Part shown: piece by piece, positions 2,771 to 30,359 of the stretch
Numbering within the stretch: position 1 is the first letter of the stretch
Layout: each line of letters starts with the position of its first letter
Source: Anaerolineales bacterium
Lineage (GTDB): Bacteria > Chloroflexota > Anaerolineae > Anaerolineales > E44-bin32
Assembly: GCA_037382465.1 (NCBI GenBank)
Contig: JARRPX010000035.1
Location: 1 to 32,437, forward strand
Direction of reading: 5' to 3'
DNA length: 32,437 nt
Position numbers and translations under genes: made by a program
The notes under the pieces: model-generated
What the model was told of the DNA's origin: nothing
The model's database searches: none
Seen by the model: only the letters and a program-made list of their open reading frames with translations

Positions 2771-2798
2771 AAGCCACTCCCCCGCCAAGGAGTGGCTT
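2771..2798 (+). promoter_or_regulatory. Expression-platform hairpin burying the SD
   Basis: AAGCCACTCC (2771-2780) pairs perfectly over 10 bases with GGAGTGGCTT (2789-2798). The SD AAGGAG (2787-2792) overlaps the 3' arm and the ATG follows at 2804. The hairpin therefore hides the ribosome binding site, which points to control at translation. The tail TTATTC is a poor U-run, so termination is less likely but not excluded. Confidence 0.75.
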
Positions 2799-2803
2799 TA
2801 TTC

Positions 2804-3459: not shown

Positions 3460-3502
3460 ACCGCTTCCGCTTTGTCCGGGAAGCGTATGAGGAGAAAACG
3501 AA

Positions 3503-4643: not shown

Positions 4644-4670
4644 GATGAATCTTTCCAGGAGGGAACTTCC

Positions 4671-5669: not shown

Positions 5670-5699
5670 GCATGACCTGGCGGACCTTGAGATCAAAGG

Positions 5700-6470
5700 A
5701 TGACGATGCCGACGGCAAAAGTCGAACTTCGCAACGTCAGTAAGACCTTCAACGCCAATGGCAGGACCATACGTGCGCTGGAGAATCTTTCTTTCGAGGT
5801 GCATCCCGGCGAATTCGTGACCATCATCGGACCTTCGGGAAGCGGCAAGAGCACGATCTTCAATCTCATCGTCGGACTGCTCGAACCGGACTCAGGAGAG
5901 ATATGCATCGACGGGGAGACCTGTAAAAAGCGGACCGGCCGCGTGGGCTACATGCCCCAGCGCGATCTTCTGCTTCCCTGGCGCAGCGTTCTCGACAACG
6001 TCATCCTCCCACAGGAACTGCTGGGCATCCCGGCGGAAAGCGCCCGTTCGAAAGCGGAGCAGCTTCTGCCCCTCTTCGGACTGGCGGAGTTCCGCGCCGC
6101 CTACCCCAGTGAACTCTCCGGCGGGATGCGGCAGCGCGCCGCACTGCTGCGCACGATGTTGACCGAACGTGATGTCCTCCTGCTCGACGAACCCTTCGGT
6201 GCACTCGACGCGCTGACGCGGCGCGAGCTGCAGGACTGGCTGCTCGACATCTGGCGCCGCTTCGAGAAGACGATCATCTTCATCACCCACGACGTCGACG
6301 AAGCGCTGTACCTCGGGGATCGGGTTCTCGTGCTCAGCGCCCGGCCGGGAACGATCCTGCGTTCCAGCAAAGTGAATCTTCCCCGGCCCAGACGGCAGGG
6401 GATGATCGCCACACCGGCCTTCGGTAAACAAATCGCTGAATTATTGGAAGCGCTGGGGATCAGCGTATGA
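5700..6470 (+). CDS. thiZ: ABC transporter ATPase, thiamine/pyrimidine type (ThiZ-like)
   Basis: A 256-residue ABC ATPase of the SsuB/TauB/ThiZ group. Walker A is GPSGSGKST (44-52), the Q-loop is YMPQRDLLLPW with Q87, the signature is LSGGMRQR (139-146), Walker B is VLLLDEP with E164 as catalytic base, the D-loop is GALD and the switch His is H197 in ITHDVDEAL. All catalytic residues are present. ATG 5700 (or 5706) follows AAAGGA. It overlaps the DUF402 gene by four bases (ATGA). It powers uptake through the permease encoded two genes upstream. Confidence 0.9.
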   Translation: MTMPTAKVELRNVSKTFNANGRTIRALENLSFEVHPGEFVTIIGPSGSGKSTIFNLIVGLLEPDSGEICIDGETCKKRTGRVGYMPQRDLLLPWRSVLDNVILPQELLGIPAESARSKAEQLLPLFGLAEFRAAYPSELSGGMRQRAALLRTMLTERDVLLLDEPFGALDALTRRELQDWLLDIWRRFEKTIIFITHDVDEALYLGDRVLVLSARPGTILRSSKVNLPRPRRQGMIATPAFGKQIAELLEALGISV

Positions 6471-6973
6471 AACCCATTCCCCAGGAAGTTCGACCGTCGG
6501 CCGGAGATTCAGTAACGGTACACAAACTCGACGCAGATGGAATCGAGGCCTGGCGCTATACGGGCGAAGTGCTGCGTACGGACTCGGCGAGCGTCACCCT
6601 CGTGGCGGCGTTCGACCGGGAGGATCGATCTCTGGGCGGCATCGAACTGCAGCGCGGTGACCGCTTCGTGGAGACTTTCTACGCCGATCGGTGGTACAAC
6701 GTATTCCGGATTCACGACGGCCGAGACGGGCGCTTGAAAGGTTGGTACTGCAACGTCACCCGCCCGGCGAAAATCGAACCGGGGCATATTTATGCCGACG
6801 ATCTGGCGCTCGATCTGGTCGTACTTCCGAACGGTGAATGCCAGGTGTTGGACGAGGAGGAATTTGAAGCGCTGCAACTGACGCCGGAGGAACGCGAGAT
6901 GGGGCTCCAGGCTTTAGAGGAACTCAAAACGTTCGCGAGTAGTCACTCTGCACCATTCGATATTAATTTCTGA
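6467..6973 (+). CDS. DUF402 family protein, nucleoside/thiamine phosphate phosphatase-like
   Basis: A 168-residue DUF402 (PF04167-like) protein. The body shows the beta-barrel run FVETFYADRWYNVFRIHD (68-84 region), then GWYCNVTRP (92-100) and the acidic metal site YADDLALDLVVLP (109-121, with D111, D112, D116) and VLDEEEF (127-133). Characterised relatives (FomD, staphylococcal Sa1684/Ntdp) hydrolyse nucleotide or nucleotidyl phosphates using two metal ions held by such carboxylates. The start overlaps the ThiZ-like stop in ATGA, so the gene is translationally coupled and under the same TPP riboswitch. That context suggests action on a thiamine phosphate or a related small phosphate ester, which is inference only. 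No terminator is evident after it. Confidence 0.8.
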   Translation: MKPIPQEVRPSAGDSVTVHKLDADGIEAWRYTGEVLRTDSASVTLVAAFDREDRSLGGIELQRGDRFVETFYADRWYNVFRIHDGRDGRLKGWYCNVTRPAKIEPGHIYADDLALDLVVLPNGECQVLDEEEFEALQLTPEEREMGLQALEELKTFASSHSAPFDINF

Positions 6974-10138: not shown

Positions 10139-13100
10139 TCAATCGTCACCCGATTCAACCGGTTCCGCCGAATCTTCCTGCTTTTTGGATTTCGTATCTT
10201 CTCGAACCCCCATCCGTACGACCACCTTATGTTTCACGGCGTTGCCATCCAGGGGCAGCTCGAGCTTGTCCAGGCGTCTGCCGTCCATCTCGATCCACGC
10301 CACTCCCCGGCCGACGTGATCCGGATTCTCGACCTTCAGTTCATAGACCGCATCGCGGTGCGAATAACGGATGTTGAAATCGTCCCACGCGGCAGGGATG
10401 ACGGGATCCACGCGCAGCACGTCCCCCCGAACCTTCAAGCCCAGAATTTCTTCGACCCAGGCCCGGTACATCCAGCCGGCCGAACCGGTATACCAGGTCC
10501 AGCCCCCTTTCCCTACTTTGCCGGCGAGATTATAGACATCCGCCGCAATCACGTACGGCTCGACCGTATAACGGTCAACGTCCTGCGGTTCGCGGGTGTG
10601 CTCGATGGGATTCAGCATGCGCAAAATCTGCGCCGCGCGTTTACCGTCCCCCATGCGCGCGTACGCGATCGCCAACCAGACGGCAGCGTGGGTGTATTGT
10701 CCCCCATTCTCGCGAACACCGGGTGGATAGCCTGCGATGTATCCGGGATTGTGCGCGGATTTATCGAAGGGCGGTGTAAACAACAATACCAGGCGATCCT
10801 TTTCGCGCACCAATTGCTCCCACACCGATTCGAGTGCCGTCTTCGAACGATCCGGATCTGCGGCCCCACAAATAAGCGCCCATGACTGGGGCAGAGAATC
10901 GATGCGCGCCTCAACGTTTCTCGCCGAGCCAAGCGGTGTACCGTCGTCGTAAGTCGCTCGTTGGTACCAGGCGCCATCCCAGGCTTCCTTCTCGACATGT
11001 TCCGCAAGCCTGCTTGCGCGCTTACGGAAATCCGCCGCATCATCCTGCCGGCCGGTTTCTTCCGCCAGATCGGCAAAACCATCCAGGATATCGATCAGGA
11101 ACCAGGCCAACCAGACGCTCTCGCCTTTCCCCTCGACGCCCACCCGATTCAGTCCATCGTTCCAATCCCCCGTCCCGATCAACGGTAATCCATGCGGACC
11201 GCTGGTCGCACCGAGCTCGATCGCACGGCGGCAGTGCTCGTAGAGGGAGGCGCGTTCCGAACTCACCTCTGGAACGAGATAGATTTCATGCTCGTCTTCC
11301 TGCAGCTTTCGCCCGTTCAGGAAGGGCAGCTGCTCTTCGAGGATGTCGAAATCCCCCGTGACCCGAACGTAGTGATTGACGACGTAGGGCAGCCAGAGCA
11401 GATCGTCTGAAATCCGCGTGCGAACTCCCGCACCGCTTGCAGGATGCCACCAGTGCTGAACGTCTCCCGCCTTGAACTGACGCCTTGCTGCGCGCAGAAT
11501 GTGTTTGCGGGCGAACTGCGGAGCAGCGTGGAGTATTGCCATCACGTCCTGTAATTGATCACGAAAGCCGAAAGCCCCACCGGACTGGTAGAACGCCGAG
11601 CGAGCGAAGATTCGGCAGCTCAGTGTCTGATAAAGCAGCCAGCGGTTGAGCAGGAATTCCACGGAAAGCTCCGGATGGCTGACCTGCACACGCCCAAGGA
11701 ATTTATCCCACCAGCCGCTCGTTTCGTGCAGGGCTTCATCAACACGCGTGTTCTCCCGAAAATGGCGGATAATACGGCTGGCATCCTCCAGCGAATCCGC
11801 CGAACCCAGCATGACGTTTATTTCGTCGCGCTGGCCGGGTTCCAATTCGATCATGACACGCATCGCACCACAGGGATCCAGGCCCGCTCCTACCCGCTTC
11901 GACAACTGTGAGCGGTGCATGGCAGCCGGATTGGCGAGACACTGGTTCCGCCCTACGAACGCCGTGCGATCGGCGGTATAGTCGTCAGCCGCAGGACTCA
12001 TGGCGATGAAAGCCACGCGATCGGCATAATCCGGGTGGTAATGGTTGTAAGCCATCAAGGCATTTGTGTCTTCGTCCCATTTGGTGATGACGTGCATCTG
12101 ATTTTCTTCACGCACTTCGCCGAGGACCAAATCGGCATAGAAAGTCACGCTGAGGTGGCGCGTTTGCGTCGAATCGTTGTGCAGCCGCAGCCGCTGAATA
12201 CGTACCGGTTCACCACCTTTATCGCTCATGGGCACAAACGTGACCAACTCTTGCTCGATGGCATGGCTGTTGTGTTCGAACACGCTGTAGCCAGCGCCGT
12301 GGCGGGCGCGGTAGGCATCCAATTCGCGAACGGGCTTCGGCGTCGGCGTCCAGAAGGTGCCGCTATCCTCGTCCCTGATGTAGAGGGCATCTGAGGCGGG
12401 ATCGCAAACGGCATCGTTCGACCAGCCGGTCAAACGATTCTGCTGACTGTTGCCGTACCAGACGAAACCCGAACCGCTTTCGGAGATCAAGGCGCCGAAT
12501 TCCGGATTGGCCAACACGTTCACCCATGGTGCGGGCGTATTATCCTCCGGACCCAGATAAACGGCATACTCATGACCGTCGGGCGTGAATCCGCCAAGGC
12601 CGTTGAAGTACGGCAATTCCATAAATGGAAGCGGAGCGGAAGGTTCCTCCTGGATTTTCCGCGGCAGCAATTCGGTCGGTAAATCCGGCGACTCACGGGA
12701 AACGCCGAGCTGCTGCGAAAGCGGTCCGCGTGCTGCCACCATGGCCACTCTGGCCGCGGAAAGGATCAAGGTGAGATGGTCTTCCGGAATCTGGTCCACA
12801 CTGCGCAGATAGACCCCACCGGGCTGATCGACGGCGGTATAGATCGAGTTCGTCTCGATCAAATTCTCCAGTCGCTCGTTCAGCGGTTTTTCGTAGCTGC
12901 TGGCCTCTTCGTTGAGAATGATCAGATCGGACTTCAGGCCGTGTTGGCGCCAGAAAGTATGCGCCTGCAGCATTTGACGCACCGTACTCAGATCCCGCGC
13001 CTCACCGACGCTCACAACTGCGATGGGAAGATCTCCCGAGATGCCGTACGGCCACAAGCCCGACTGGCCCAGATGATTCTGTTCCAGCCGTTCGGGCGGC

Positions 13101-16100
13101 GGCCGCAGCCAGGCGTCCGGGTAAAGCATGGCGCTGGCCAACTGCTGGAAACGACGGGCGTCGTCCGGTTGTATGCGCAGCAAGCGCAGTTCGAGTTGGG
13201 CGTGAACCCAGGCCATCTCCAGGCTGCGCGTGATGGCGCGTGGGTCGCCGTATTTTTCCATCAACCGCACGGCCTGATCGCGTTCGTTCGAAGCAGCCAG
13301 CAGCATGGAGACGGAGAGGCGCTGTCGAGGCCGTATCGTCACCAACTTGCGAATGCTCAGAATGGGATCGAGAACGAAACCTTTGCTGTTACTCAGATTG
13401 CCTTCTAATGCGATTGGATTTTCCGGGGAACGCCCGCGGCCGATGAAGCGAGAACGGTCGGTTTCGAACTGCATCGGGCTCGATTCCCCGTTTTCAAGTG
13501 TGAGGCGGTGAGCGACGAAGATCGGTGTATCTTCTGGATCCCGCAGCCGGCGGAAGGCAAGCAGACCGTCGACCTGCGGCAACGACTCCGTCTGAATGAA
13601 CATCTTATTAAACGCAGGATGCTGCCGGTCGGCGTCGTGCGGCGCCATGGATAATTCGACGTAGCTGGTGATCTCGATCCGCCGGGCTCGGCTCGAGCGG
13701 TTGATGAAGGTCATGCGCCGGATTTCGACGTCATCCTCCGGCGAGACAACGATCTCGGTTTCTGTGTCGATGCCGTTGTCTCTGCGCCGGAACTCGGCGC
13801 GATCGATCGCCATATTAATGGAATAGTTATCCGGCTCCCCTCCGACCGGCTGATAGGTGTTGGACCAGATGCGCCCGTTATCGACGTCGCGGAGATAACA
13901 GAAGCTGCCCCACGCATCGCGTGTGGTATCGGCCCGCCAGCGAGTGAGTTCAAAATCCTTCCACTGGCTGTAGCCGCCGCCGGCGTTGGTGATCATCAAG
14001 CCCATGTTGCCGTTGGACAGTAGATGGGTCCTCGGCGTCGGGGTCTGGGCGGTGTCGAATTTGCTCACGGAAGGCGCCATTTCTACCGTCGTCGCACGCG
14101 TCGTCGGGCGTTCGCGAGTGGAGACTTCGTAAACCGGTGGCGCGACGGGGATGCGCTCGTACAACAATGGTTCGGTAGCCTGTACGCGCCGATCCTCATG
14201 GAAGCGCCGCTGCATGCTGTAATCGTGGAGTAGATTCACCATGGCCAGAAAACCCATCGCCTGGTGGTGGGCCATGTACGCCCGTACCAGGATTCCGCGT
14301 TCGCCCTCGCGCTTGCGCTGACGGGTGAAATCGATCGACTCGTAAAACCCGTAGCGGCTCTGCAGCCCTTCACCCGCCAGACGACGTAAATTCTGCGCCG
14401 CTTGATCCGGCTCCACCATCAATGCCAGCATGGAGGCGTAAGGTGCGACAACCAGGTCCTCCTCCAGGCCGCGCTTCAACCCCAATCCGGGTACACCAAA
14501 CGCCTTGTATTGGTACGTCTTGTTGACATCAAGATCGCCGTATGCGGATTCGGAGATCCCCCAGGGGATGTTGCGTTGATCCGCATACTGGCGCTGCAGT
14601 TCCACGGCCTCGTGCGTGGCGAGGTCCAACAGGGAATTGCTGTACGTACGCTGCAAGAGCAGGGGCATCAGATATTCAAACATCGTGCCGGTCCAGCTGA
14701 GCAGCAGTCTATGATTTCCGACGGAACCGTAAGGGCGATTGAGCGCAAGCCAATGTTCGCTGGGAACGTCCCCGCGCGCGATGGCGACGAAGCTTCCCAG
14801 ACGCGATTCACTGGCCAACAAGTCGTAATAGGACCCATCACGACGCTGGTTGCTTACGTTGTAGCCGATGGTAAATAGGCGGCGGTCGGGATCGTACAGG
14901 AAGCGCATATTCATGTTGCGGGCCAGCACTCGAACGGTATCGAGCAGATCTTCCCCCTGCCCCAGAATTTCTCCCGCGAACCAACGCGCCTCAGAGAAAG
15001 CATCACGCAAACGTTCGATCCATTCCGTGAGCGATGGCGGCAGCGAGTCATCGGATTGAATGGAAGCCTCGATGGCCTGCATCACGGGCACGGCGCCGGC
15101 GGCTAAATCTCGCAGCGAAGGAGCTTCACGAAGCGCGTGCCGACGGGCATCCAACGTTCCTGCACCCAACGGCGCGAGGACTTCCTCCGCTTCGGTCGTT
15201 AAAATCTCCGCCCATTTCATGTAGCGATCCACGGTGTGAATCCATTGGGAGATCTGCCGCTCCAATTTGCCCGCCCAGTATGCCGCTTCGTCGCCTGTTC
15301 CGGCGCTGCGGCGCAGACCGTAGGACAACGCAATCGACAGACCGCTGGCATGGCGAACGGTGCGGATGAGCTCTTCGAGATTGCCCGGCGATGATTCCAA
15401 CGTCTGCGCCAGTTTGTTGAAGGTCTGCATATGAGGATCGTCCGAACGCGTGGACGTTAAGACGTCCTTTAAAATATCGAGCGTGTCCCACGCGCCGTGC
15501 AGGATCACGGGATCGAGCAAAGGCGCATCCAACAATTCCCCGATTCCAATCTCCAGCGTCCACAAGCATCCCAAGAGGTTTCCGCTGTCGACCGTGGAGA
15601 CATAGCGTGGTTCCAACGGTTCCAGTGTCTCGATGTTGTACCAGTTCAATAAATGACCCTCATATTTCTCGAGTCGATCCAGGGTCTTCATCGTGGCGTT
15701 TACTTGTTTTATGACGCTGTCTGCATTGAGATAGCCGCAGTCGTTGGCGCCCAGGGCGGACAGCACCCATAGTCCGATGTTGGTCGGACTCGTGCGATCG
15801 GCAACTTGATTCTGGTGAGAGACCTGAAAGTTATCCGGCGGCAGCCAGTTTGTCTTTTCGGTGACGAAATCTTCGAAGTACGCCCAGGTGCGTCGCGTCC
15901 ATTTGCGTATCCTGCGGCGCGTTCGTCTGGAAAGCTGCTGTTGAGGCGTTTCTTGATCCGGTCCTTGATTCAGCCGCCAACCAATCCAGGGACTGACGAA
16001 CCACAGGATGAGGAAAGGAATGGCGGCAAACAGACTCATTGGCTGGACCAGCCAAACCAGAATGCCGAATACGATGGAAAACAAGCTGACGATACCGAGC

Positions 16101-19100
16101 GTGTTGGAGAAGGATCGTGCCTGATCGGTCGTGGACCATCCCGTCATCTGTGCCGTCGTCCATTCCAGGAAATTATGATGACTCACAAGCCGGCGGTACC
16201 AAACCCTGAGAATCGCATCCAGAGCTAAACCCGTCTGATGAGGGATCAAGGCCGCCTCAACAAACGAACGCCGGATGCCGTGCCACACTTCTTGCAGTGT
16301 AAAATTTGTCGATCCATGCGACGTCGTCATCCAGGTCACAGGCTGTACCAGTGGTTGGAACAGCATCAGACCGCCGACGAGCAGGCTGGACACGCCACCC
16401 ATTGCCGGAGAAATCAGCCACGCACCCAGCAGGTAGAGCATTAACGACACCGGCACCAAGCTGCGGCGGAGATTGTCAAACACTTTCCAGCGATTAAGGA
16501 TAGACAGTGGGTTGGGTACGCGCTTGCCGCTTCCGGAGGGTGCCCGGGGCAGGATCCAATCTGCAATTTGCCAATCCCCCCGAATCCAGCGATGCTGACG
16601 CCGCGCGTAGCTCATGTAATCGCTGGGAAAATCATCATACAGCTCGATGTCGCTCGCATAACCCACACGGACGTGTGCGCCTTCGATCAGATCGTGGCTG
16701 AGGATGCGTTCCTCGGGTAAACGGTCTTTCATGATCCGATTGAAGAAACGCGGATCGTAAATCCCCTTTCCGACATAAGATCCTTCGGAAGCAAGGTCTT
16801 GATACACATCCGAAACCGCTTTGGTGTACGGATCGGTCCCGATCGGATCGGTGAAGAGGCGTGTGAAAATCGTAGCTGTAGAGCTGGGCAGCGCCGTGCT
16901 GACTCGAGGTTGGATGATGCCGTATCCGTCAACCCGCAGTGGATTCTCGGTAACGACCGTTGGCCGATTGAGGGGATGGGCGATGGTTTCGATCAAACGA
17001 CGGGCGGTGTCCCGCGGCAGCTGCGTATCGCTGTCCAGGGTGATGACGAAACGCACGTTGGTCATTGCTTCCGCCCGACCGACGCGTACGATGTCCTCCA
17101 GTTCCTCGCCGTCGATCAGACGGTTGAGCAGTTGCAGTTTTCCGCGTTTACGTTCCTTGCCAATGAATTTACCTTCCGATTCACACCAGGTCCGTTCGCG
17201 GTGGAAAAGGTAGAAGCGTCCCGTGCCATGACGCCGGTTCAACGCCTCGATGCCGGCCACGGCTCTTCCGAGCAAGACCTCATCCTGCTTGGTCGTCGAC
17301 GCGTCGGCGTCCATGAAATCACCGAACAGCCCGAACAACAGGTTCGGATGTGGATTGGCGAGATAGCGTATCTCCAGTTTGTCGATCTCCTCATCGACCG
17401 TGCTTTCGTCCACCCACAATAAAGGCACGACCACGAGCGTACGGAATTCATCCGGTATGCCTTCCTCTTCGAAAGACATCTTCGGCAAGGCGATCGGTGT
17501 CAACAGCCGCGTGAAGCAGTAATTCACGATCTGGATTGCCAGTTGACTGGCCGGTAGTACGCTCAACAGCCCACCGAGGATGAGCCAGCCGCTGTGTTCT
17601 CCGACCACGTAACTCAGCGCGACAGCGATCCCGACCAACACGATATTGGCCAGTCCCACCGCACCCAGGTACAAGACCGTGTGGTTGCGTTTTATCCAAT
17701 CCAGAAACCGCTTGCCTAGTTTCTCCCGTCCGCCCAATTCACTAATGAAACTTTTCCGTCCCGAGCCGATGAGATAGGTGCCTACGTGATTTCGCCGGAA
17801 ATCTGCAGCGGCCGTTTCGACCTTGTTCGAAGCAGCCTCAATGGCGAGTTCCGCAACTTCGGTTTCGGGGATTTTCGATCCTCGGGCGATTTGCTCGACG
17901 GCGCGGCGGTAACGGTCACGCGTGTCGAAATCCATGTGGGGGTACACACCGGCGGGGTCACGGCGCAGAATTTCTTCCGTACGGCTGTGGCGCTCGAATA
18001 TTTCACGCCAATCCAGAAGCGAGAGTTGGCGTAGGCTGGTAATGGCGTTGCCGATCGAAATCTGCATCGCCGCCTGACGGGCCTGCTCGCGGCGGTTGAT
18101 CTCGCCCAACTCGGTCTGCAAACTGCGTTCCAACCAGCTTCGCACCGGCACGAGTGCCGCCTGCTCGTCGTACAGATGGCCGATCAACTGCGTGGCGAAA
18201 AAGGCGCTCGGTTCGGGTTGTTCTTTGGCCAATTCGGCGAGAACATTGAAGAGCTGGCTGGCATCACGGCGGGCGGTGGTCAGCAAGCGGTTGGCCCAGA
18301 AATCGGCCTGGACTGCCTCATGGAAACGCCGCAGCACCTGCAGCGCCAGTTCTCGCAAACGGTCGATGATGGTGATGCGCAGCATCATCGGCAGCGCCCA
18401 CAATTCCCCGATGCTTAGCAGAGAAACGGACTGGTAGGCCTGCAGGAAATCACCGATGTTGCTGCGGTCCAGGCGGGCATCCGTGTGGAGCACCAGATCG
18501 CTGGCCAAACCATAGACCCGCGGATCGCCTCGCTGCGGGCCGCTGCTCAAGATCGGCAGTTCCTCGTAGAAGCGCCGCGGCAAGTTGAGGCCTACATCGC
18601 GGATGTGACTCTGCATGATGTACGCGTTGTCCAACAACCATTCTGCCGAAGCAGTGATGCTTTGCTCGAGCCGCTCGTACTGCGCCAGGTCGTCGCACAC
18701 CTGCTGCAGCGTCTGACCGGATTGGATGATACGCGCCAGCAGGGCCGCGCCGCGCCCCCGTGAAGGCGGGCCGATCGTGTGCGTGGCCGCCAGCCGTCGG
18801 GCGTGATCTTGTATCTGCACCGGTGAGAGTGGGACCACCGCAGGGAACTCTCCGGGCTGGATTAAGGAACTCGTCTTCAGGGCAAAGATCGCAGGCTGCA
18901 TCTCCACAACCCTGCGCAGAATGGGAATCGCCCAAGCCAGCGATTCAGGCTCCGCCCGCAGCAGGATCAGCGACTCTTCCGTGACCAGCCATCGCGCGCA
19001 ACGTTCCTGCATCTTGCTTTCCACACCCAGGTCCAGCCACCGGGCGATCAAAGCGCCGAAAAGGCCCAACAGCAGCACCAGTATGCCGGTCGACAAATAT

Positions 19101-19351
19101 ATCGAGACCTTCAGAAAGGCGGGTACCAGATAGTGGAGCAGGAGACCCACAAGCAGACCCAGAAAGACCCCACCGAGGAAACCGTGCACTATCCAGGTGC
19201 GTCGACCATAGCCACGTTTGTGGATGTCACCTTCGGCAGTCTTTTGGATCAAAAACGTCCTGTCGAAACCTCGATGCCGCAAAGCTTGACGCGCCTCGAC
19301 GGCATCTTCGTGGCGCACGAAAAAAGCGACCAACGTCGCTAATTCACGCAC
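10139..19351 (-). CDS. Cyclic beta-1,2-glucan synthase-like protein (GT84 + GH94 modules)
   Basis: A single intact frame of about 3070 residues, longer than the usual 2800-2900. Modules in order: an N-terminal membrane module (1-170); a GT84 glycosyltransferase core between membrane helices near 560-615 and 960-1125, with the nucleotide-sugar site DSDTQLP (DSD at 773-775) and RRQHRWIRGDW (917-927); a glucoamylase-like region with GTMFEYLMP (about 1555) and IPWGISESAYGDLD (about 1595); two GH94 N-terminal beta-sandwich repeats (about 1770-1920 and 2260-2410); and a GH94 catalytic barrel with GTGDWNDGLNRVG holding the general-acid Asp (about 2729-2732). Known relatives (NdvB/Cgs) polymerise glucose from UDP-glucose into cyclic glucans at the inner membrane, with the GH94 part trimming chain length. 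GTG 19351 is chosen because GAGGTG lies at a proper distance; GTG 19357 would overlap that SD. No NdvA-like exporter is in the window. Confidence 0.9.
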   Translation of the reverse strand: MRELATLVAFFVRHEDAVEARQALRHRGFDRTFLIQKTAEGDIHKRGYGRRTWIVHGFLGGVFLGLLVGLLLHYLVPAFLKVSIYLSTGILVLLLGLFGALIARWLDLGVESKMQERCARWLVTEESLILLRAEPESLAWAIPILRRVVEMQPAIFALKTSSLIQPGEFPAVVPLSPVQIQDHARRLAATHTIGPPSRGRGAALLARIIQSGQTLQQVCDDLAQYERLEQSITASAEWLLDNAYIMQSHIRDVGLNLPRRFYEELPILSSGPQRGDPRVYGLASDLVLHTDARLDRSNIGDFLQAYQSVSLLSIGELWALPMMLRITIIDRLRELALQVLRRFHEAVQADFWANRLLTTARRDASQLFNVLAELAKEQPEPSAFFATQLIGHLYDEQAALVPVRSWLERSLQTELGEINRREQARQAAMQISIGNAITSLRQLSLLDWREIFERHSRTEEILRRDPAGVYPHMDFDTRDRYRRAVEQIARGSKIPETEVAELAIEAASNKVETAAADFRRNHVGTYLIGSGRKSFISELGGREKLGKRFLDWIKRNHTVLYLGAVGLANIVLVGIAVALSYVVGEHSGWLILGGLLSVLPASQLAIQIVNYCFTRLLTPIALPKMSFEEEGIPDEFRTLVVVPLLWVDESTVDEEIDKLEIRYLANPHPNLLFGLFGDFMDADASTTKQDEVLLGRAVAGIEALNRRHGTGRFYLFHRERTWCESEGKFIGKERKRGKLQLLNRLIDGEELEDIVRVGRAEAMTNVRFVITLDSDTQLPRDTARRLIETIAHPLNRPTVVTENPLRVDGYGIIQPRVSTALPSSTATIFTRLFTDPIGTDPYTKAVSDVYQDLASEGSYVGKGIYDPRFFNRIMKDRLPEERILSHDLIEGAHVRVGYASDIELYDDFPSDYMSYARRQHRWIRGDWQIADWILPRAPSGSGKRVPNPLSILNRWKVFDNLRRSLVPVSLMLYLLGAWLISPAMGGVSSLLVGGLMLFQPLVQPVTWMTTSHGSTNFTLQEVWHGIRRSFVEAALIPHQTGLALDAILRVWYRRLVSHHNFLEWTTAQMTGWSTTDQARSFSNTLGIVSLFSIVFGILVWLVQPMSLFAAIPFLILWFVSPWIGWRLNQGPDQETPQQQLSRRTRRRIRKWTRRTWAYFEDFVTEKTNWLPPDNFQVSHQNQVADRTSPTNIGLWVLSALGANDCGYLNADSVIKQVNATMKTLDRLEKYEGHLLNWYNIETLEPLEPRYVSTVDSGNLLGCLWTLEIGIGELLDAPLLDPVILHGAWDTLDILKDVLTSTRSDDPHMQTFNKLAQTLESSPGNLEELIRTVRHASGLSIALSYGLRRSAGTGDEAAYWAGKLERQISQWIHTVDRYMKWAEILTTEAEEVLAPLGAGTLDARRHALREAPSLRDLAAGAVPVMQAIEASIQSDDSLPPSLTEWIERLRDAFSEARWFAGEILGQGEDLLDTVRVLARNMNMRFLYDPDRRLFTIGYNVSNQRRDGSYYDLLASESRLGSFVAIARGDVPSEHWLALNRPYGSVGNHRLLLSWTGTMFEYLMPLLLQRTYSNSLLDLATHEAVELQRQYADQRNIPWGISESAYGDLDVNKTYQYKAFGVPGLGLKRGLEEDLVVAPYASMLALMVEPDQAAQNLRRLAGEGLQSRYGFYESIDFTRQRKREGERGILVRAYMAHHQAMGFLAMVNLLHDYSMQRRFHEDRRVQATEPLLYERIPVAPPVYEVSTRERPTTRATTVEMAPSVSKFDTAQTPTPRTHLLSNGNMGLMITNAGGGYSQWKDFELTRWRADTTRDAWGSFCYLRDVDNGRIWSNTYQPVGGEPDNYSINMAIDRAEFRRRDNGIDTETEIVVSPEDDVEIRRMTFINRSSRARRIEITSYVELSMAPHDADRQHPAFNKMFIQTESLPQVDGLLAFRRLRDPEDTPIFVAHRLTLENGESSPMQFETDRSRFIGRGRSPENPIALEGNLSNSKGFVLDPILSIRKLVTIRPRQRLSVSMLLAASNERDQAVRLMEKYGDPRAITRSLEMAWVHAQLELRLLRIQPDDARRFQQLASAMLYPDAWLRPPPERLEQNHLGQSGLWPYGISGDLPIAVVSVGEARDLSTVRQMLQAHTFWRQHGLKSDLIILNEEASSYEKPLNERLENLIETNSIYTAVDQPGGVYLRSVDQIPEDHLTLILSAARVAMVAARGPLSQQLGVSRESPDLPTELLPRKIQEEPSAPLPFMELPYFNGLGGFTPDGHEYAVYLGPEDNTPAPWVNVLANPEFGALISESGSGFVWYGNSQQNRLTGWSNDAVCDPASDALYIRDEDSGTFWTPTPKPVRELDAYRARHGAGYSVFEHNSHAIEQELVTFVPMSDKGGEPVRIQRLRLHNDSTQTRHLSVTFYADLVLGEVREENQMHVITKWDEDTNALMAYNHYHPDYADRVAFIAMSPAADDYTADRTAFVGRNQCLANPAAMHRSQLSKRVGAGLDPCGAMRVMIELEPGQRDEINVMLGSADSLEDASRIIRHFRENTRVDEALHETSGWWDKFLGRVQVSHPELSVEFLLNRWLLYQTLSCRIFARSAFYQSGGAFGFRDQLQDVMAILHAAPQFARKHILRAARRQFKAGDVQHWWHPASGAGVRTRISDDLLWLPYVVNHYVRVTGDFDILEEQLPFLNGRKLQEDEHEIYLVPEVSSERASLYEHCRRAIELGATSGPHGLPLIGTGDWNDGLNRVGVEGKGESVWLAWFLIDILDGFADLAEETGRQDDAADFRKRASRLAEHVEKEAWDGAWYQRATYDDGTPLGSARNVEARIDSLPQSWALICGAADPDRSKTALESVWEQLVREKDRLVLLFTPPFDKSAHNPGYIAGYPPGVRENGGQYTHAAVWLAIAYARMGDGKRAAQILRMLNPIEHTREPQDVDRYTVEPYVIAADVYNLAGKVGKGGWTWYTGSAGWMYRAWVEEILGLKVRGDVLRVDPVIPAAWDDFNIRYSHRDAVYELKVENPDHVGRGVAWIEMDGRRLDKLELPLDGNAVKHKVVVRMGVREDTKSKKQEDSAEPVESGDD

Positions 19352-19357
19352 AAGCAC

Positions 19358-22508: not shown

Positions 22509-23321
22509 ATGAGCCGACCATTGTGGTTTACGGAGTTCGTCAAGAAAATCTTCCCCACTCGCTATCTGCTCGCTCGCGCAACGCGCTTGCCCTACCTGGG
22601 CTCGCTCGTCGACCGCACACTTTTCGATGGCGACGATATGATCTATCTCCCGTCCAATCGAACAATACAAGTCAACGAAGCCATCCCGGCGAACAGAAAT
22701 ATGGTCGTACCCTCCCAGGTGGTGGAGCATTTTATCGAGCGTGCCGAGGTCCACTGGATCATGCACAGTTGTATTTGCCGTACGGCGGCAGGCTGTGAGG
22801 ATTATCCCAGGGACCTGGGATGCCTGTTCCTCGGGGAAGCTGCATTGGACATCAACCCCGACCTCGGCCGAAGGGTGACGAAGACCGAAGCCAGCCGGCA
22901 CGTTGCGCGCTGCCGCGAGGCGGGGTTGGTGCATTTGATTGGAAGGAACAAACTGGACACCGTCTGGCTCGGAGTCGGACCGGGGCATCGACTGCTGACC
23001 ATCTGCAACTGCTGCCCCTGCTGCTGCGTCTGGCGGGTGCTGCCCTATGTAAAAGCGGAAATTGGCGCCAAGGTCACGCGCATGCCCGGCGTCGAAGTCT
23101 CGGTCGGAGAGGCGTGCATCGGTTGCGGCGACTGCCTGGACACCTGCTTCGTGAATGCGATCCGCCTGGTCGACGATCGGGCACAGATCATAGAATCCTG
23201 CCGGGGCTGCGGTCGTTGTGTGGAAATCTGCCCGCAAGGTGCGATCGAACTCCAGGTGAACGCAGACGGGTTCGTCGAGCGCGCCATCGAGCGCATCGCT
23301 CCACTCGTGGATTTGCGCTGA
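22509..23321 (+). CDS. Cysteine-rich ferredoxin-like protein A (CNCC-x-CCC motif, two 4Fe-4S sites)
   Basis: A 270-residue protein with 19 cysteines. The C-terminus has two standard 4Fe-4S sites, CIGCGDCLDTC (C203-C213) and CRGCGRCVEIC (C231-C241), each followed by a Pro or loop typical of bacterial ferredoxins. Further in are two extra clusters: HSCICRTAAGC...GC (C88, C90, C96, C105) and ICNCCPCCCVW (C166, 168, 169, 171, 172, 173). The N-terminal 80 residues have no signal peptide. It is probably a cytoplasmic or membrane-side electron carrier or a carrier of an unusual cluster. A related protein, with the same order of motifs, lies at 26347-27285. Family function is unknown to me; the run of cysteines could bind a further metal centre. 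It follows the TPR gene by 31 bases. Confidence 0.8.
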   Translation: MSRPLWFTEFVKKIFPTRYLLARATRLPYLGSLVDRTLFDGDDMIYLPSNRTIQVNEAIPANRNMVVPSQVVEHFIERAEVHWIMHSCICRTAAGCEDYPRDLGCLFLGEAALDINPDLGRRVTKTEASRHVARCREAGLVHLIGRNKLDTVWLGVGPGHRLLTICNCCPCCCVWRVLPYVKAEIGAKVTRMPGVEVSVGEACIGCGDCLDTCFVNAIRLVDDRAQIIESCRGCGRCVEICPQGAIELQVNADGFVERAIERIAPLVDLR

Positions 23322-23346
23322 AACCACGAACTGCTCGCACGTTCGA

Positions 23347-24123
23347 TTATTCCAATACTTGCTGTGAACTGCCCCCGTTTTCCGCTGCGTAAGCCGTGTG
23401 TAATTTCAGCGGATCGCGCTCCTTGGCGTGCAGGCGCAGATTGAGCATTTCCACGAAGAACGAAAACGCCATGGCGAAGTAGATGTATCCTTTGGGAATA
23501 TGAAACTCCATCCCTTCCGCCACCAGCGAAACGCCGATCAACAGCAGAAAACTGAGGGCCAGGATTTTCAAGGTGGGATGCCGGTTGACGAAATCACCGA
23601 TCGGTCCGGCTGCGAACATCATCACCCCGACAGCGACGACCACGGCCGCCACCATCACCGCCAGCTCGTTGCCAATCCCCACGGCGGTGATCACGGAGTC
23701 CAATGAAAAAACGACATCGAGCAGCATGATCTGAAAAACGACGCCGACAAAGGATGTTGCCGCTCTCACCTCGGTGTGTCCCGAGGGCATTTCGAGCTTA
23801 TCGTGAATCTCGAAGGTGCTCTTTCCCAGCAGAAACAAACCGCCGACGATCAAGATAATGCCGCGGCCCGTAACGGTCAGGCCAACAACGTCGAACAGCG
23901 GCGTCGTGAGCCGCGTCAACCAGGTAATCGAGAAAAGCAGGAGAATACGGCTGACCATGGCCATGGCCAAACCGACCGTACGCCCGCGGGCCTGCTGGTC
24001 CTGCGGAAGTTTACCGGAGAGTATGGTTATGAAGATGATGTTATCGATGCCCAACACGATCTCCAGTGCGGTCAGCGTGAGCAGCGCAATCCAGTTTTGC
24101 GGATCCGAGATCAATTCCGTCAT
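23347..24123 (-). CDS. TerC family integral membrane protein
   Basis: A 258-residue TerC-type membrane protein with about seven helices. The two family acidic motifs are in place: LEIVLGIDNIIFITIL (E21, D27) and QIMLLDVVFSLDSVITAVG (D136, D142). These charged residues inside helices are thought to bind metal ions in the pathway. ATG 24123 has a GAGGGA SD. TerC proteins are linked to manganese or other metal export, including loading of secreted metalloproteins, and to tellurite resistance in some hosts. No yybP-ykoY manganese riboswitch is seen upstream. Tail-to-tail with the ferredoxin-like gene A (25 bases between stops). Confidence 0.88.
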   Translation of the reverse strand: MTELISDPQNWIALLTLTALEIVLGIDNIIFITILSGKLPQDQQARGRTVGLAMAMVSRILLLFSITWLTRLTTPLFDVVGLTVTGRGIILIVGGLFLLGKSTFEIHDKLEMPSGHTEVRAATSFVGVVFQIMLLDVVFSLDSVITAVGIGNELAVMVAAVVVAVGVMMFAAGPIGDFVNRHPTLKILALSFLLLIGVSLVAEGMEFHIPKGYIYFAMAFSFFVEMLNLRLHAKERDPLKLHTAYAAENGGSSQQVLE

Positions 24124-24268
24124 GCTTGTCCCTCAGTACCTGTTTTCCCAGGCTGCAGGTATTCTATCGTCCAGCGTTACGCCGGATCTGACCCACGCCT
24201 GACGCTGAAAATCCCGCTCCCTGACCGCTCGATGATACCACAGCCCACGAGTGGGAAATCCGCTGCGC

Positions 24269-24297
24269 TATACAAGACGTCCAAAGGTGAATATACT
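24269..24297 (+). promoter_or_regulatory. Promoter ending 7 bases before an ATG (possible leaderless start)
   Basis: TATACA (24269-24274), a 17-base spacer and TATACT (24292-24297). The predicted start of transcription coincides with ATG 24304. Confidence 0.5.
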
Positions 24298-24303
24298 ACC
24301 CGC

Positions 24304-25059
24304 ATGCCTGCCGCCCAGCCCAAATATCCATTCGTCACCCGAAGCTCATTGTCGATACTGGCAGGCATTCTCAGCGGCCGGCGCCGCAGTTTCCGGAGCG
24401 ACGCGTGCGCGATGACGTTCCAGCTAAAGAATCCAATACAAATTCAGGGTTCGCTGCCGGATTTTGCCGCGAAATCCTGGTTGATCGTCTGCAACCATTA
24501 CAGCCGCCCGGGCTTCGGCGCCTGGTGGATTCCGCTGGGGATCGCATCCATCGTTCACCACGAGATGCACTGGATCGTCACTGCCGCCTGGCGTTTCGAT
24601 GATCCGCTGCGAAGCCGGACGATCACACCGCTCTCCCACTGGTTCCTGCAGCGAGTCTCGCGTGCGTATGGATTCACCTGCATGCCCCCAATGCCGCCGT
24701 ATCCGGGGGACGTCGGGCAGCGGGCACGGTCCGTACGCGCCGTCCTGCGATACATCGAAACGAAACCGCATCCCGTTCTGGGCTTATCACCCGAAGGCGC
24801 CGATTCGTATTACGGAGACCTGCAGCCGCCTCCGCCGGGAACGGGTCGCTTCGCGGCCCTGTTGGCGAAGCGCAACTTTCACCTGCTGCCCATTGGCGTT
24901 TTCGAGCAGCAGCAGCGGCTTTGCCTTTCGATTGGCGAAGCGCAGCAGCTGCCAACGCCCACCGGCGAATCCAAAGTTCGTGACCGGCAGTTGGCCGATT
25001 TCGTGATGCGCACAATCGCCGCCTGTCTTCCCCCCCACTTGCGCGGACCCTATGCTTGA
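24304..25059 (+). CDS. PlsC-like lysophospholipid acyltransferase-like protein with altered HX4D
   Basis: A 251-residue protein with the fold motifs of 1-acylglycerol-phosphate acyltransferases. Motif I is VCNHYSRPGFGAWW (62-75), and motif III is LGLSPEGADSYYG (159-171), matching the FPEGTRS type. The catalytic dyad His at 65 is there, but the Asp expected five residues on (HX4D) is Gly 70. Relatives I recall from this phylum share the NHYSRPG form, so the change is likely a subfamily trait and not a lesion; catalysis may differ or be lost. It may modify a lipid or act as a lipid-binding protein. It is followed closely (12 bases) by an MFS gene, so the two are probably one operon. Much longer in-frame extension to the left has no support. 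Confidence 0.72.
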   Translation: MPAAQPKYPFVTRSSLSILAGILSGRRRSFRSDACAMTFQLKNPIQIQGSLPDFAAKSWLIVCNHYSRPGFGAWWIPLGIASIVHHEMHWIVTAAWRFDDPLRSRTITPLSHWFLQRVSRAYGFTCMPPMPPYPGDVGQRARSVRAVLRYIETKPHPVLGLSPEGADSYYGDLQPPPPGTGRFAALLAKRNFHLLPIGVFEQQQRLCLSIGEAQQLPTPTGESKVRDRQLADFVMRTIAACLPPHLRGPYA

Positions 25060-25071
25060 AAAGAGGCTTCG

Positions 25072-26346
25072 ATGCGAAAGAACTCCTTGTTCGAATTGAT
25101 CAAGCTGAACACGTACTGGTTTGGCTTGTCGTTCATGTGGACCAGTCTTCATACGCTCATCCTGCCGGCGCTGATACTGCAGTACGTGCCGGACGAGCGA
25201 AAAAACACCACACTCGGCCTGCTTACCTTTACCGGCTTGATCATCGCCGCCATCGTTCAACCACTTTCAGGTGCCGCCAGCGATCGTTGGGCTTCGCGTT
25301 TCGGGAAACGACGCCCGGCGATCGTCTTCGGTACATTATGCGACATGGTCTTCCTGGCACTGATGGCCTACGCCGGCGGGATTCCGCTGCTGGCTTTGTC
25401 ATACGTAGGCCTGCAGTTCACCTCCAACATCGCCCACGGTCCGGCGCAGGGATTGATGCACGACAAGGTACCCTCCGAACAGATGGGCATGGCCAGCGGG
25501 ATCAAAAACATGTTCGACATGAGCGGTGTGGTCGTCTCGTCCCTCGTGGTGGGATTCATCTTCACTGTGGAAACGCCGCTCGCGGCATTCATCGGGATTG
25601 CCCTTGCGTTGGTACTCGGAGCGACCTTCACGGTTTTCGGTGTTCATGAGGGCAGCACCGCTGCGGAGAAAAACGGCGAACCCATTCTGACGAGATTTCG
25701 CAATTCACTGCGCATCGACCGGAAGCAGCACGGTAATTACTGGCGCCTGCTTCTCGTGCGATTCCTGTTTCTTTCCGGCGTGTACGGCATCCAGGTCTTC
25801 GCGCAGTATTTCATCCGCGACGTCCTGCAGGTCGAAAATCCGATCGAATTCACGGGGTCGATGCTGGCTGTTATCGTCTTGGCGCTGATGCTCTTTTCCA
25901 TCATCGCCGGCCGGATCGCAGATCGCATCGGCCGCAAGCCGATGCACACCCTGGCTGCCGTGACCGTTTGCGTGGGGAGCATTTTGCTAACCATTGCCAG
26001 ACAACCAACCAGCGTATTGATCATCGGAAGCGTCGTCGGCGCCGGGATCGGCGTGTTCCTGAGTGCGAATTGGGCGTTGGCCAACGACCTGGCCCCGCTG
26101 GGAGAGGGCGGGAAATTCCTCGGTCTGACCAACCTGGCCACGGCCGGCGCCGGCGCCATGAGCCGCTTGCTGGGGCTTCCGATCGACGCGGTCAACAATT
26201 TGCGTCCCGGCGAGTATCTCGGTTACAACGTGCTGTTCCTGAGCGCTGCGGTGATGTCGATCGTCAGCCTGCTCATCCTGCGCAAGGTGCCGGAACAAAT
26301 AAACCCGCGGCGCACACAAGTGGTCGATATTCGATCCGATCGATGA
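25072..26346 (+). CDS. MFS transporter (SLC45-like)
   Basis: A 424-residue protein with 11-12 predicted membrane helices. Typical major-facilitator features include the loop DRWASRFGKRRP (residues about 70-80) after helix 2 and a second-half counterpart GRIADRIGRKP (about 282-292). The start FWxxLHxLILPALILQYVP resembles the SLC45 / sugar-type subgroup, where sugars such as sucrose or maltose are moved with protons, but the substrate here cannot be told. AGAGG lies 7 bases before ATG 25072. Its stop codon directly abuts the stop of the facing ferredoxin-like gene (TGA then TTA, stop-to-stop with zero bases between). Confidence 0.82.
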   Translation: MRKNSLFELIKLNTYWFGLSFMWTSLHTLILPALILQYVPDERKNTTLGLLTFTGLIIAAIVQPLSGAASDRWASRFGKRRPAIVFGTLCDMVFLALMAYAGGIPLLALSYVGLQFTSNIAHGPAQGLMHDKVPSEQMGMASGIKNMFDMSGVVVSSLVVGFIFTVETPLAAFIGIALALVLGATFTVFGVHEGSTAAEKNGEPILTRFRNSLRIDRKQHGNYWRLLLVRFLFLSGVYGIQVFAQYFIRDVLQVENPIEFTGSMLAVIVLALMLFSIIAGRIADRIGRKPMHTLAAVTVCVGSILLTIARQPTSVLIIGSVVGAGIGVFLSANWALANDLAPLGEGGKFLGLTNLATAGAGAMSRLLGLPIDAVNNLRPGEYLGYNVLFLSAAVMSIVSLLILRKVPEQINPRRTQVVDIRSDR

Positions 26347-27285
26347 TTAACTGCCGGCTTGCTGGATGAGCTCTCGAATCTCCAGCGGCGGACTCTTGGT
26401 CGCGTCCAGCACCAGCGTAAGCGCCTGCGGCGGGCAAACCGAAACACACACCCCGCAGCCCATACATGCGACCTCGTCCACAATCACCAGATCCCCATCC
26501 GCTTCGATAGCTTCGAACGGGCAGATTTCACTGCACTCGCCACACGCAATGCATTCGTCCGCATCGACACGGGCAACATAGCCGGAACTGGCCAACATTC
26601 CCGATCCTCGCCGGAAGGAGTCCATCGCCGCGCAGCAGCAGGAACAGCAGTTGCAGATCGCATAGAAGCGGCCGAACATCGCATCCTTGAAAAAAGCATG
26701 ATGCACGTGTCCGCGTTCGTGCTCCTCTTCGAGGATTTTTTCCGCCTGCGCCTGGGTGATCCAACGTGCCCGGTCTGGATGATGATCGATCACGAAGCCG
26801 GCAAAGGGTTCGCCGATCACCATACACACGTCCAGCGGCCGGCAAGGATCGGGCTTGCTCGAACGGCAGGCGCAATCAAGTACGGCGATATGATCGGGGT
26901 TTTTGAGTACAATGTCGCGCGCCATCTTGTAAGGGATGATCTGTTCGAGATCCCCGAGATCGACATCCTCCTGCACCGTGACCAACTGGCGAGCGGCTTG
27001 CGGGGTAACGACCTTGCCGTGATACGCGTCCGCGAACGTGTGCGCCTCCACGTCCGGCTCAGGGCGCGGCTGAAACCATGCCACGATCGCCCCCACAAAT
27101 TTCACCACCCCCGACAGCCAATGCTCGCCGCGGCCGGCGGCGATGTAGAGATAGGGCCAACGTCCGTAGACGTAGCCATGCAGAAAATCGAACCAGGAAT
27201 AATCTGAAACCGTTTGCGCTTCTCGGTGAAAATCCTTAGAACCCTGCGACCGCCAAAACCACTTCCATTCACGCTTGCCTGGCAT
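26347..27285 (-). CDS. Cysteine-rich ferredoxin-like protein B (CNCC-x-CCC motif, two 4Fe-4S sites)
   Basis: A 312-residue paralogue of protein A, read on the complementary strand from ATG 27285 with a strong AGGAGG SD. It has 18 cysteines: LDCACRSSKPDPC...VC (C138, C140, C148, C154), ICNCCSCCCAAM (C211, 213, 214, 216, 217, 218), and two 4Fe-4S motifs CIACGECSEIC (245-255) and CMGCGVCVSVC (274-284). The order and spacing match protein A. A 130-residue N-terminal part differs: it is rich in Trp and Tyr (FHREAQTVSDYSWFDFLHG) and includes a possible membrane-touching segment (VVKFVGAIVAWF, 60-71). A membrane-near redox carrier is plausible. The function of the family is unknown to me. Confidence 0.8.
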   Translation of the reverse strand: MPGKREWKWFWRSQGSKDFHREAQTVSDYSWFDFLHGYVYGRWPYLYIAAGRGEHWLSGVVKFVGAIVAWFQPRPEPDVEAHTFADAYHGKVVTPQAARQLVTVQEDVDLGDLEQIIPYKMARDIVLKNPDHIAVLDCACRSSKPDPCRPLDVCMVIGEPFAGFVIDHHPDRARWITQAQAEKILEEEHERGHVHHAFFKDAMFGRFYAICNCCSCCCAAMDSFRRGSGMLASSGYVARVDADECIACGECSEICPFEAIEADGDLVIVDEVACMGCGVCVSVCPPQALTLVLDATKSPPLEIRELIQQAGS

Positions 27286-28541: not shown

Positions 28542-30359
28542 TCAATCCGAGAGCGTGCAGCCGTTGCTGAAATCGAGATCCAGGTTATAGCCTCCACTAT
28601 CGGGCGGATTACCAAAAATAAACCGTAGTGTCACTGGACCAGTAGGAATACTCGCGTTGGGAGAAGCCGATTCGGGTGAAAATTGCTCGTCAAACCAAAT
28701 CACGTTTCCAGCAAGTCTAACGATGTTGAGCGGAACTCCACCAGTCCAAGTGAGACTCCACGAATTCAACGTGACGGCAGATCCTGTACCATTCTGGATA
28801 ATCCAGCGAGCGTCCCTTTCTAAAGCAGAGATCGTTGGCCCAGTCAAACTCAATCCACCACACGGATCGGGCGTCGGCGTGCGCGTCAGCGTGATCGTGG
28901 GCGTGATCGTGGGCGTCGCCGTCGGTGGGGGCGTGAGCGTGATCGTCGGGGTGAGCGTGGGCGTGATGGTGCGCGTCTGGGTGATCGTCGGCGTACGCGT
29001 GATCGTCGGCGTGCGCGTGATGGTGGACGTCATGACGTTGGTGAGCGTCAGCGTTGGAGTGCGCGTGCGCGTAGACGTCGCGGTTGGCGGCACGGGCGTG
29101 TCGGTCGGAACCGGAGTCAGCGTGTTCTCCCCGGCGGCGGCCAGGGTTTCGTTGACGGAACCGAAGGCCGCGGTCTCCAGGGCCTGCATGGTGCCCGCCA
29201 CCGCAGTCTCGATTTGCTCGCCGGAAAGATCTTCCAGGCCGGAGCGGATGGCGACGGCCGTCGAAAGGGCATCGATCGTCTCCTGGGCGTCGTAGGTGGG
29301 AATCGCAGCAACCGCCGCACCTGGATCTCCGTCGTCGAGCATGTTGTCCACGATGCGCGAAGCGGCGTACAGGCTTCCTACGAGCAGGGGAATCAAAAAC
29401 AAGAGCATCGCCGACATGGGCATGCGCCTGCCCGATTTCCCGCCGTTGCCGCCATCGTCGGGCGGGACGATGAAATCCTCCGGCTTCGGCGGCGGCGATT
29501 TGGCGCCCGGTTTCAATCGTCCGGATTCCGGATCGTACACATCCTGCATCGTCTTCTGAAACGCCTCGTTCATCTTCGCAATGGAGGCGTAGCGTTCCTT
29601 TGGATCCTTGGCCATCGCCTTTACGATGACCTGCTCGACTTTCGCCGGCAGGTTGGCGTTCACCAGACGGGGTTGGGGCAAAGGCTCGTGTGCATGCATC
29701 AACGCGATGGCCAGGGGTGTGTCTGCTTCGTAGGGAAGCCGGCCCGTACAGACCTGATACAGAATCACGCCCAGCGCGTACTGGTCGGCGAGATGCGAGA
29801 CCTTCTCACCGCGCGCCTGTTCGGGGGCCATGTACGTCGGTGTGCCGATCAAACCCGAACCGGTCAGGGTCATCGTCGCTTCCGAGACCTGGGCGGTGCC
29901 GAAGTCGGAAAGCCAGGCGTTGCCTTTCTCGTCGATCAGAATGTTGGAGGGTTTGACGTCACGATGGACGATCCCCGCATCGTGCGCGTACTGCAGTGCG
30001 CTGGCGATTTGATTGATGATGATGGCGCCCTCTTCGGGGCTGAGTGGATGGTCAAGCAGGCGTTCACGCAGCGTACCCACTTTCATGTACGGCATGACAA
30101 TGTAGGCCAGATCGTCTTGCTCGCCAAAATCGAGAATCGGTACGATGTTCGGATGGCGCAGGCCCATGAGAACCCTGGCCTCACGCCGGAAGCGCGCCAG
30201 GAAACCTTCCTCTTCAGCCAGACCCGGAGAGATCACTTTGATGGCGACGACGCGCTCGTTGGTCACGTCGACGGCCTGAAACACGGAAGCCATCCCGCCG
30301 CGGCCAATTTTCTTGACGATCTCGTATTTTCCGAGGATCTTACCGATTAAGTACGCCAT
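28542..30359 (-). CDS. Transmembrane Ser/Thr protein kinase (PknB-like) with Thr/Pro stalk and beta-domain
   Basis: A 605-residue Hanks-type kinase read on the complementary strand from ATG 30359 (AGGA SD). Kinase core: glycine loop GRGGMA (19-24), Lys 41 in AIK, Glu 60, catalytic HRDVKPSN (132-139, D134), DFG (152-154), APE (178-180). All catalytic residues are present. The linker is Pro- and Gly-rich, the transmembrane helix is about 315-335 (MSAMLLFLIPLLVGSLYAA), then comes an extracellular Ala/Glu-rich helix region, a long Thr/Pro stalk (about 414-498) and a final beta-sandwich-like domain (about 500-605) with a Cys near each end (C500, C601) that could form a disulfide. It has no PASTA repeats. 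It is probably a sensor kinase that reads surface cues. Confidence 0.9.
   Translation of the reverse strand: MAYLIGKILGKYEIVKKIGRGGMASVFQAVDVTNERVVAIKVISPGLAEEEGFLARFRREARVLMGLRHPNIVPILDFGEQDDLAYIVMPYMKVGTLRERLLDHPLSPEEGAIIINQIASALQYAHDAGIVHRDVKPSNILIDEKGNAWLSDFGTAQVSEATMTLTGSGLIGTPTYMAPEQARGEKVSHLADQYALGVILYQVCTGRLPYEADTPLAIALMHAHEPLPQPRLVNANLPAKVEQVIVKAMAKDPKERYASIAKMNEAFQKTMQDVYDPESGRLKPGAKSPPPKPEDFIVPPDDGGNGGKSGRRMPMSAMLLFLIPLLVGSLYAASRIVDNMLDDGDPGAAVAAIPTYDAQETIDALSTAVAIRSGLEDLSGEQIETAVAGTMQALETAAFGSVNETLAAAGENTLTPVPTDTPVPPTATSTRTRTPTLTLTNVMTSTITRTPTITRTPTITQTRTITPTLTPTITLTPPPTATPTITPTITLTRTPTPDPCGGLSLTGPTISALERDARWIIQNGTGSAVTLNSWSLTWTGGVPLNIVRLAGNVIWFDEQFSPESASPNASIPTGPVTLRFIFGNPPDSGGYNLDLDFSNGCTLSD
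28869..29110 (-). repeat. Imperfect short tandem repeats coding the kinase Thr/Pro stalk
   Basis: The + strand shows many imperfect 6- and 12-base units such as CGTGATCGTCGG and GTGCGCGT. In the gene they code alternating Thr with Pro, Ile or Arg. Such repeats can change length by slippage without shifting frame when units are multiples of three, so stalk length may vary between strains. Confidence 0.65.

Follow-up and report, generated by a model that had tools for sequence, protein, structure and literature searches.

Two neighbouring genes of an Anaerolineales bacterium encode proteins that, by sequence comparison, consist of an ordinary ferredoxin joined to a new cysteine domain, and alignments identify them as members of a real and widespread family that the searched libraries leave undescribed beyond its ferredoxin part. 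The genes, here P1 and P2, lie in a 32,437-nucleotide stretch of DNA (the window; contig JARRPX010000035.1) that was analysed as a whole (Table 1). A preliminary description of the window had reported that both proteins carry a CxC cluster, a six-cysteine octad and two 4Fe-4S sites in the same order; this is borne out, with both open reading frames confirmed at their ends. The first site proved fuller than the plain CxC described: the CxC is present, as part of a CxCR (ending in R91 in P1 and R141 in P2) accompanied by two more conserved cysteines. All 18 cysteines of P2 fall within the sites of Table 1, leaving none free, and only C135 lies outside them among the 19 cysteines of P1. Translated in six frames, the window contains the pattern C.CC.CCC two times, against none in 200 shuffles. 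P1 and P2 align with each other at 23% identity (E 7e-11), orthologues of P1 in related genomes are 55–66% identical to it, and the two CxxCxxCxxxC motifs found in each protein are reflected in PF00037 scores of 39.6 and 50.8 bits against a cut-off of 21.1.

Table 1 Features of the P1–P2 locus, in window coordinates
Feature	Coordinates	Strand	Basis and remarks
P1 (subfamily A), cysteine-domain ferredoxin, 270 aa	22509..23321	+	ORF, Pfam Fer4, orthologues
P1 undescribed cysteine-rich domain	22644..23084	+	Alignments; no match in Pfam, NCBIfam or PDB sequences
P1 CICR-x5-C-x8-C (C88, C90, C96, C105)	22770..22823	+	Invariant in 16/16 subfamily A
P1 octad CNCCPCCC (aa 166-173; C166...C173)	23004..23027	+	Six cysteines invariant in 16/16 subfamily A
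P1 two [4Fe-4S] motifs (ferredoxin domain), cysteines 203/206/209/213 and 231/234/237/241	23115..23231	+	Pfam Fer4
TerC-family membrane protein	23347..24123	-	PF03741, E 2e-44; also adjoins subfamily B in L188, L191
Acyltransferase-like protein	24304..25059	+	Sub-threshold PF01553; 50% identical gene adjoins B in L192
MFS transporter	25072..26346	+	PF07690; 57% identical gene adjoins B in L192
P2 (subfamily B), cysteine-domain ferredoxin, 312 aa	26347..27285	-	ORF, Pfam Fer4, orthologues
P2 two [4Fe-4S] motifs (ferredoxin domain), cysteines 245/248/251/255 and 274/277/280/284	26434..26553	-	Pfam Fer4; VIA-align
P2 undescribed cysteine-rich domain (aa 95-233)	26587..27003	-	Alignment; AlphaFold2 pLDDT mostly 84-98 from residue 111
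P2 octad CNCCSCCC (aa 211-218; C211...C218)	26632..26655	-	Six cysteines invariant in 22/22 subfamily B rows
P2 CACR-x7-C-x5-C (C138, C140, C148, C154)	26824..26874	-	Invariant in 22/22 subfamily B rows

Pfam, NCBIfam and the sequences of the PDB recognize only the C-terminal 2[4Fe-4S] ferredoxin part of P1 and P2. These ~60 residues carry the same two CxxCxxCxxxC motifs as clostridial-type ferredoxins (Fer4/PF00037, Fer4_7, Fer4_10), score above the Pfam cut-off and match known domains in structure, with VIA-align giving Z values of about 9–11 between the P2 ferredoxin domain and known ferredoxin domains; P1 and P2 differ from such ferredoxins by a fused domain of ~140 residues that contributes ten further conserved cysteines. 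Apart from scattered weak single hits, a 48-row alignment of this cysteine domain matched nothing in Pfam or NCBIfam, and its profile retrieved only noise-level DEP matches from PDB sequences (one at E 0.15). The earlier reading of the octad is supported to the extent that it belongs to a conserved domain absent from all three libraries. Existing annotation calls the family proteins only '4Fe-4S binding protein', a generic label under which the conserved cysteine-rich domain is therefore hidden. A literature search, with most subscription journals outside its reach, found no paper on the family and no experiment on any member, and a text search with the motif string turned up nothing relevant, its matches concerning insect CncC or neural crest cells or being scanning noise.

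The search for relatives and their neighbours that the preliminary description had proposed uncovered numerous relatives across phyla, and no described family with the cysteine domain was found in Pfam or NCBIfam. Scanning DNA for the pattern [FILMV]CNCCxCCC, a method that sets a lower bound on family size, yielded at least 117 loci with at least 118 open reading frames containing the octad. Among the matches listed are Asgard archaea, Desulfobacterota, Chloroflexota, Bacillota, Bacteroidota, Campylobacterota, Spirochaetota, Acidobacteriota, Planctomycetota and others. Nearly all of the octad reading frames keep the same site order, with CxC[RK]...C before the octad and a 4Fe-4S motif after it, and those that break the order are mostly cut at locus ends or are single-domain forms. 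P1 and P2 both show the arrangement that defines the family: CxC[RK], a further cysteine, and then CxC-x3-4-C about 66–81 residues downstream of the first CxC. Within the phylum of the window, a profile scan located the cysteine domain in 28 of 201 genomes.

Conservation of the cysteines is strict within each subfamily. All 18 cysteines of P2 are invariant across subfamily B (P2 and 21 relatives; 22 of 22 rows), as are 18 of the 19 cysteines of P1 across subfamily A (P1 and 15 relatives; 16 of 16 rows). Some of these rows were found through the octad pattern itself and are circular as evidence for octad conservation; the octad is retained as well in rows retrieved purely by protein similarity (L013, L028-L031, L179-L195 and L200). 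Because conservation is this strict, the cysteine domain likely holds an extra metal centre. A 60-row alignment shows no variation at the first two cysteines upstream or at octad positions 1, 3 and 8. Divergent members have lost octad cysteines 4, 6 and 7, and the family-wide core is therefore CxC plus CxC...C. The wider family includes the degraded octads CNCCxCHC, CNCCxCSC, CNCAKCHC, CNCYKDRC, CNCDRADC and CNCDQDC, and losses among positions 4, 6 and 7 in the last four of these leave a metal site that requires all six octad cysteines unsupported.

On balance, we consider it probable that P1 and P2 are Fe–S electron carriers or relays from two old subfamilies, each combining the ferredoxin with at least one further Fe–S cluster in the cysteine domain and serving a partner. 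The proteins would be soluble or peripherally membrane-associated. Beside the C-terminal domain, assigned by family match as a 2[4Fe-4S] ferredoxin, the cysteines of the N-terminal domain (CxCR...C, CxC...C and the extra octad cysteines) would, judging by their invariance, bind at least one further Fe–S cluster. The ferredoxin clusters would be the entry or exit point for electrons, which would move between them and the cysteine-domain cluster, making the protein a carrier or relay that may serve its partner through the cysteine domain. The flanking genes suggest that this partner varies by subfamily or is encoded elsewhere, since family genes stand alone in most genomes.

Several lines of evidence point to such a relay. 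All P2 cysteines are invariant and none is free, as cluster ligands would be; the family is defined by alignment and its ferredoxin part matches solved 2[4Fe-4S] domains; and the domain also occurs alone with CxCR...C and the full octad. AlphaFold2 models of P1 and P2 have mean pLDDT values of 87 each (87.2 and 86.9) and agree on the placement of the CxC and the octad: in both, the CxC is predicted to come after the domain's first strand and octad cysteines 1 and 3 to lie at the end of its last. This modelled placement is compatible with one shared metal site. Foldseek and VIA-align searches with both full models gave match lists filled by the ferredoxin domain, with none of the listed matches over the cysteine domain, and a search of a viral structure library gave no match. 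Against the relay, the family as a whole can dispense with octad cysteines 4, 6 and 7, and a zinc site or a redox disulfide would yield similar conservation. The dense cysteines, the octad positions that are not fixed and the TerC neighbours in a few genomes would indeed suit a cysteine domain that is a zinc site or a metal-storage or chaperone module instead of a redox centre, yet nearly all members have the domain fused to a 2[4Fe-4S] ferredoxin, which speaks for electron transfer, and we regard the zinc or storage alternative as quite improbable.

If the cysteine domain binds a cluster, its form may be unusual. In the [8Fe-9S] double cubane, six irons are bound by cysteine thiolates (PMC11971306). 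The family-wide CxC...C plus CxC...C resembles the 3+3 cysteine set of double-cubane proteins (DCCP, BzdN) as an analogy of ligand count only, and the spacing and length of those proteins differ from those of the P1/P2 family. Membership of the double-cubane family was rejected, as P1 and P2 have only Fer4-type Pfam matches and the 48 cysteine-domain rows have none related. Likewise, the CCG domain of HdrB (PF02754), which is similar as a cysteine-rich redox domain of anaerobes, was rejected: the proteins show no CCG pattern and no PF02754 match, and the hhalign probability is 0.2%. It is a tentative and rather unlikely proposal that the domain is a new metal-site fold with a non-standard cluster, such as two linked cubanes on 3+3 cysteines or a cluster beside a redox disulfide.

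A redox disulfide would also be central to a ferredoxin-dependent disulfide or thiol reductase analogous to ferredoxin-fed FTR, in which four cysteines would hold a [4Fe-4S] cluster, a neighbouring pair would form the disulfide and the fused ferredoxin would be the donor. The CxCR of P1 and P2 resembles the CPCR of the FTR catalytic subunit (PF02943), hhalign pairs these 24 columns, both have CxC motifs and cysteines in excess of what one cluster needs, and a fused electron donor fits. Yet FTR has three CxC motifs (CPC...CPC...CxC) and the P1/P2 family has two, no thioredoxin-like neighbour was seen, and profile–profile probabilities of 4.2% and 0.5% do not show homology; we judge a reductase of this type to be unlikely.

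The cysteine domain also occurs without the ferredoxin, in reading frames of about 180–225 aa from small-genome members of the window's phylum, and because it occurs alone it is, at the level of sequence, a module of its own. Such single-domain forms at L215, L218 and L222 (also L096 and L123) have CxCR...C and CNCCxCCC and lack the equivalent of C154, an absence that weighs against the proposed relay; genome G048 has two matches of equal score 31 kb apart. A reduced-cysteine variant, CNCDQDC with a ferredoxin domain, is present at L226-L229 in genomes of the window's own order. The window's genome encodes a third paralogue, P3 (L002:1444-2502 on the minus strand, equivalent to G000:C23 near 46245-46823), whose octad CCCCGCCC has seven cysteines. 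At its N-terminus P3 has a segment resembling a winged helix, a divergent TetR gene lies alongside, and the CCCCGCCC form is retained in L042, likewise adjoining a TetR gene.

Members such as P3 bear on another possibility, namely that the cysteine domain senses redox state, oxygen or metal and that winged-helix-like segments act on DNA or a partner. In many members an additional stretch at the N-terminus reads as winged-helix-like, P3 and some others have a TetR gene next to them, and the one weak DEP profile match (E 0.15) is to a winged-helix domain. P1 and P2, however, lack a winged-helix-like segment, TetR adjacency is non-significant (p 0.09) and the DEP match is at noise level, and we hold a sensor role to be rather unlikely.

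The preliminary description had placed TerC, acyltransferase and MFS genes between P1 and P2 and suggested a dedicated redox system, with TerC perhaps supplying a metal, a reading in which all five genes would act together. Pfam confirmed the TerC and MFS genes, whereas the acyltransferase assignment is sub-threshold (17.4 bits against a cut-off of 23). Some linkage extends beyond the window: in G000, G133, G149 and G150 subfamilies A and B adjoin each other convergently, and G151 probably has the pair too; there, both contigs are broken within one kind of gene, which by its sequence reads as a transposase. TerC adjoins B in G149 and G150, which are close relatives, and MFS and acyltransferase genes adjoin B in G135 (57% and 50% identical, respectively). 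In a Dehalococcoidia genome (L085), an MFS gene with 39% identity is located close to A. The gene between A and B in G133 was rejected as a conserved partner, since it reads as a transposase.

Among the loci read, all five genes occur together only in the window, and other neighbours are unrelated, including an HpaB-family enzyme, acyl-CoA dehydrogenase, PEP carboxykinase, 4-alpha-glucanotransferase, a glycosyltransferase, a RadA-like protein and others. No flanking gene is significantly enriched near family genes (TetR, p 0.09; MFS, 0.17; TerC, 0.09, in a count excluding the window's own TerC, which the simple gene caller missed; acyltransferase, 0.21; HpaB-type dehydratase, 0.25). Of the 27 genomes in the family to which the window's genome belongs, 17 have B (its own included) and 8 have A; all 8 A-bearing genomes match B too, one B match being broken by stops, and 9 of the 17 B-bearing genomes have B without A. 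As flanking genes vary and none is enriched, a dedicated system with TerC, acyltransferase and MFS is unsupported and appears highly improbable; gene order comparisons identify the linkage at this locus as a feature of close relatives. Subfamily A genes at L180, L191 and L085, from two classes, lie near an HpaB-family gene with a 4-hydroxyphenylacetate 3-hydroxylase fold, possibly 4-hydroxybutyryl-CoA dehydratase-like, an association without significant enrichment. Elsewhere, the window encodes a thiamin pyrophosphokinase together with a nearby NMT1/THI5-like binding protein and ABC ATPase (2792-6970), likely a thiamin-precursor uptake cluster; a giant 3072-aa protein (10139-19357, minus strand) that resembles cyclic beta-glucan synthases and in which a glucoamylase-like domain accompanies GH94 supersandwich and catalytic domains; and a Ser/Thr protein kinase that has a linker rich in Thr and Pro and an additional C-terminal region (28542-30359, minus strand).

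P1 and P2 had also been described as two diverged copies, a local pair. In a tree of 116 rows, built by a short search without bootstrap and with SH-aLRT support, the P1 clade (15 rows; SH-aLRT 100) spans Chloroflexota, Asgard, Thermoplasmatota, Desulfobacterota and Spirochaetota, and the P2 clade (12 rows; SH-aLRT 98) spans Chloroflexota, Syntrophaceae and Desulfovibrio. The two proteins thus fall in separate, ancient, well-supported clades that each extend across several phyla, which argues against local duplication and identifies them, on this tree, as old paralogues since brought together. Other pairs include a tandem B-type pair in a Dehalococcoidia genome (L148:1661-2632 and 3065-4030) and a convergent family pair in a Spirochaetes genome (L056:57-830 on the plus strand and 1612-2544 on the minus strand).

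Together, the alignments point to a conserved cysteine-rich domain of many anaerobe lineages and Asgard archaea that generic annotation has concealed, and the ten invariant cysteines of the domain in subfamilies A and B provide a precise, testable prediction of extra Fe–S content. Should the centre prove non-standard, it would represent a new cluster type or electron-delivery route for anaerobic metabolism, and a non-standard cluster with its own ferredoxin donor, shared by bacteria and Asgard archaea, would constitute a previously unseen class of redox enzyme or electron delivery.
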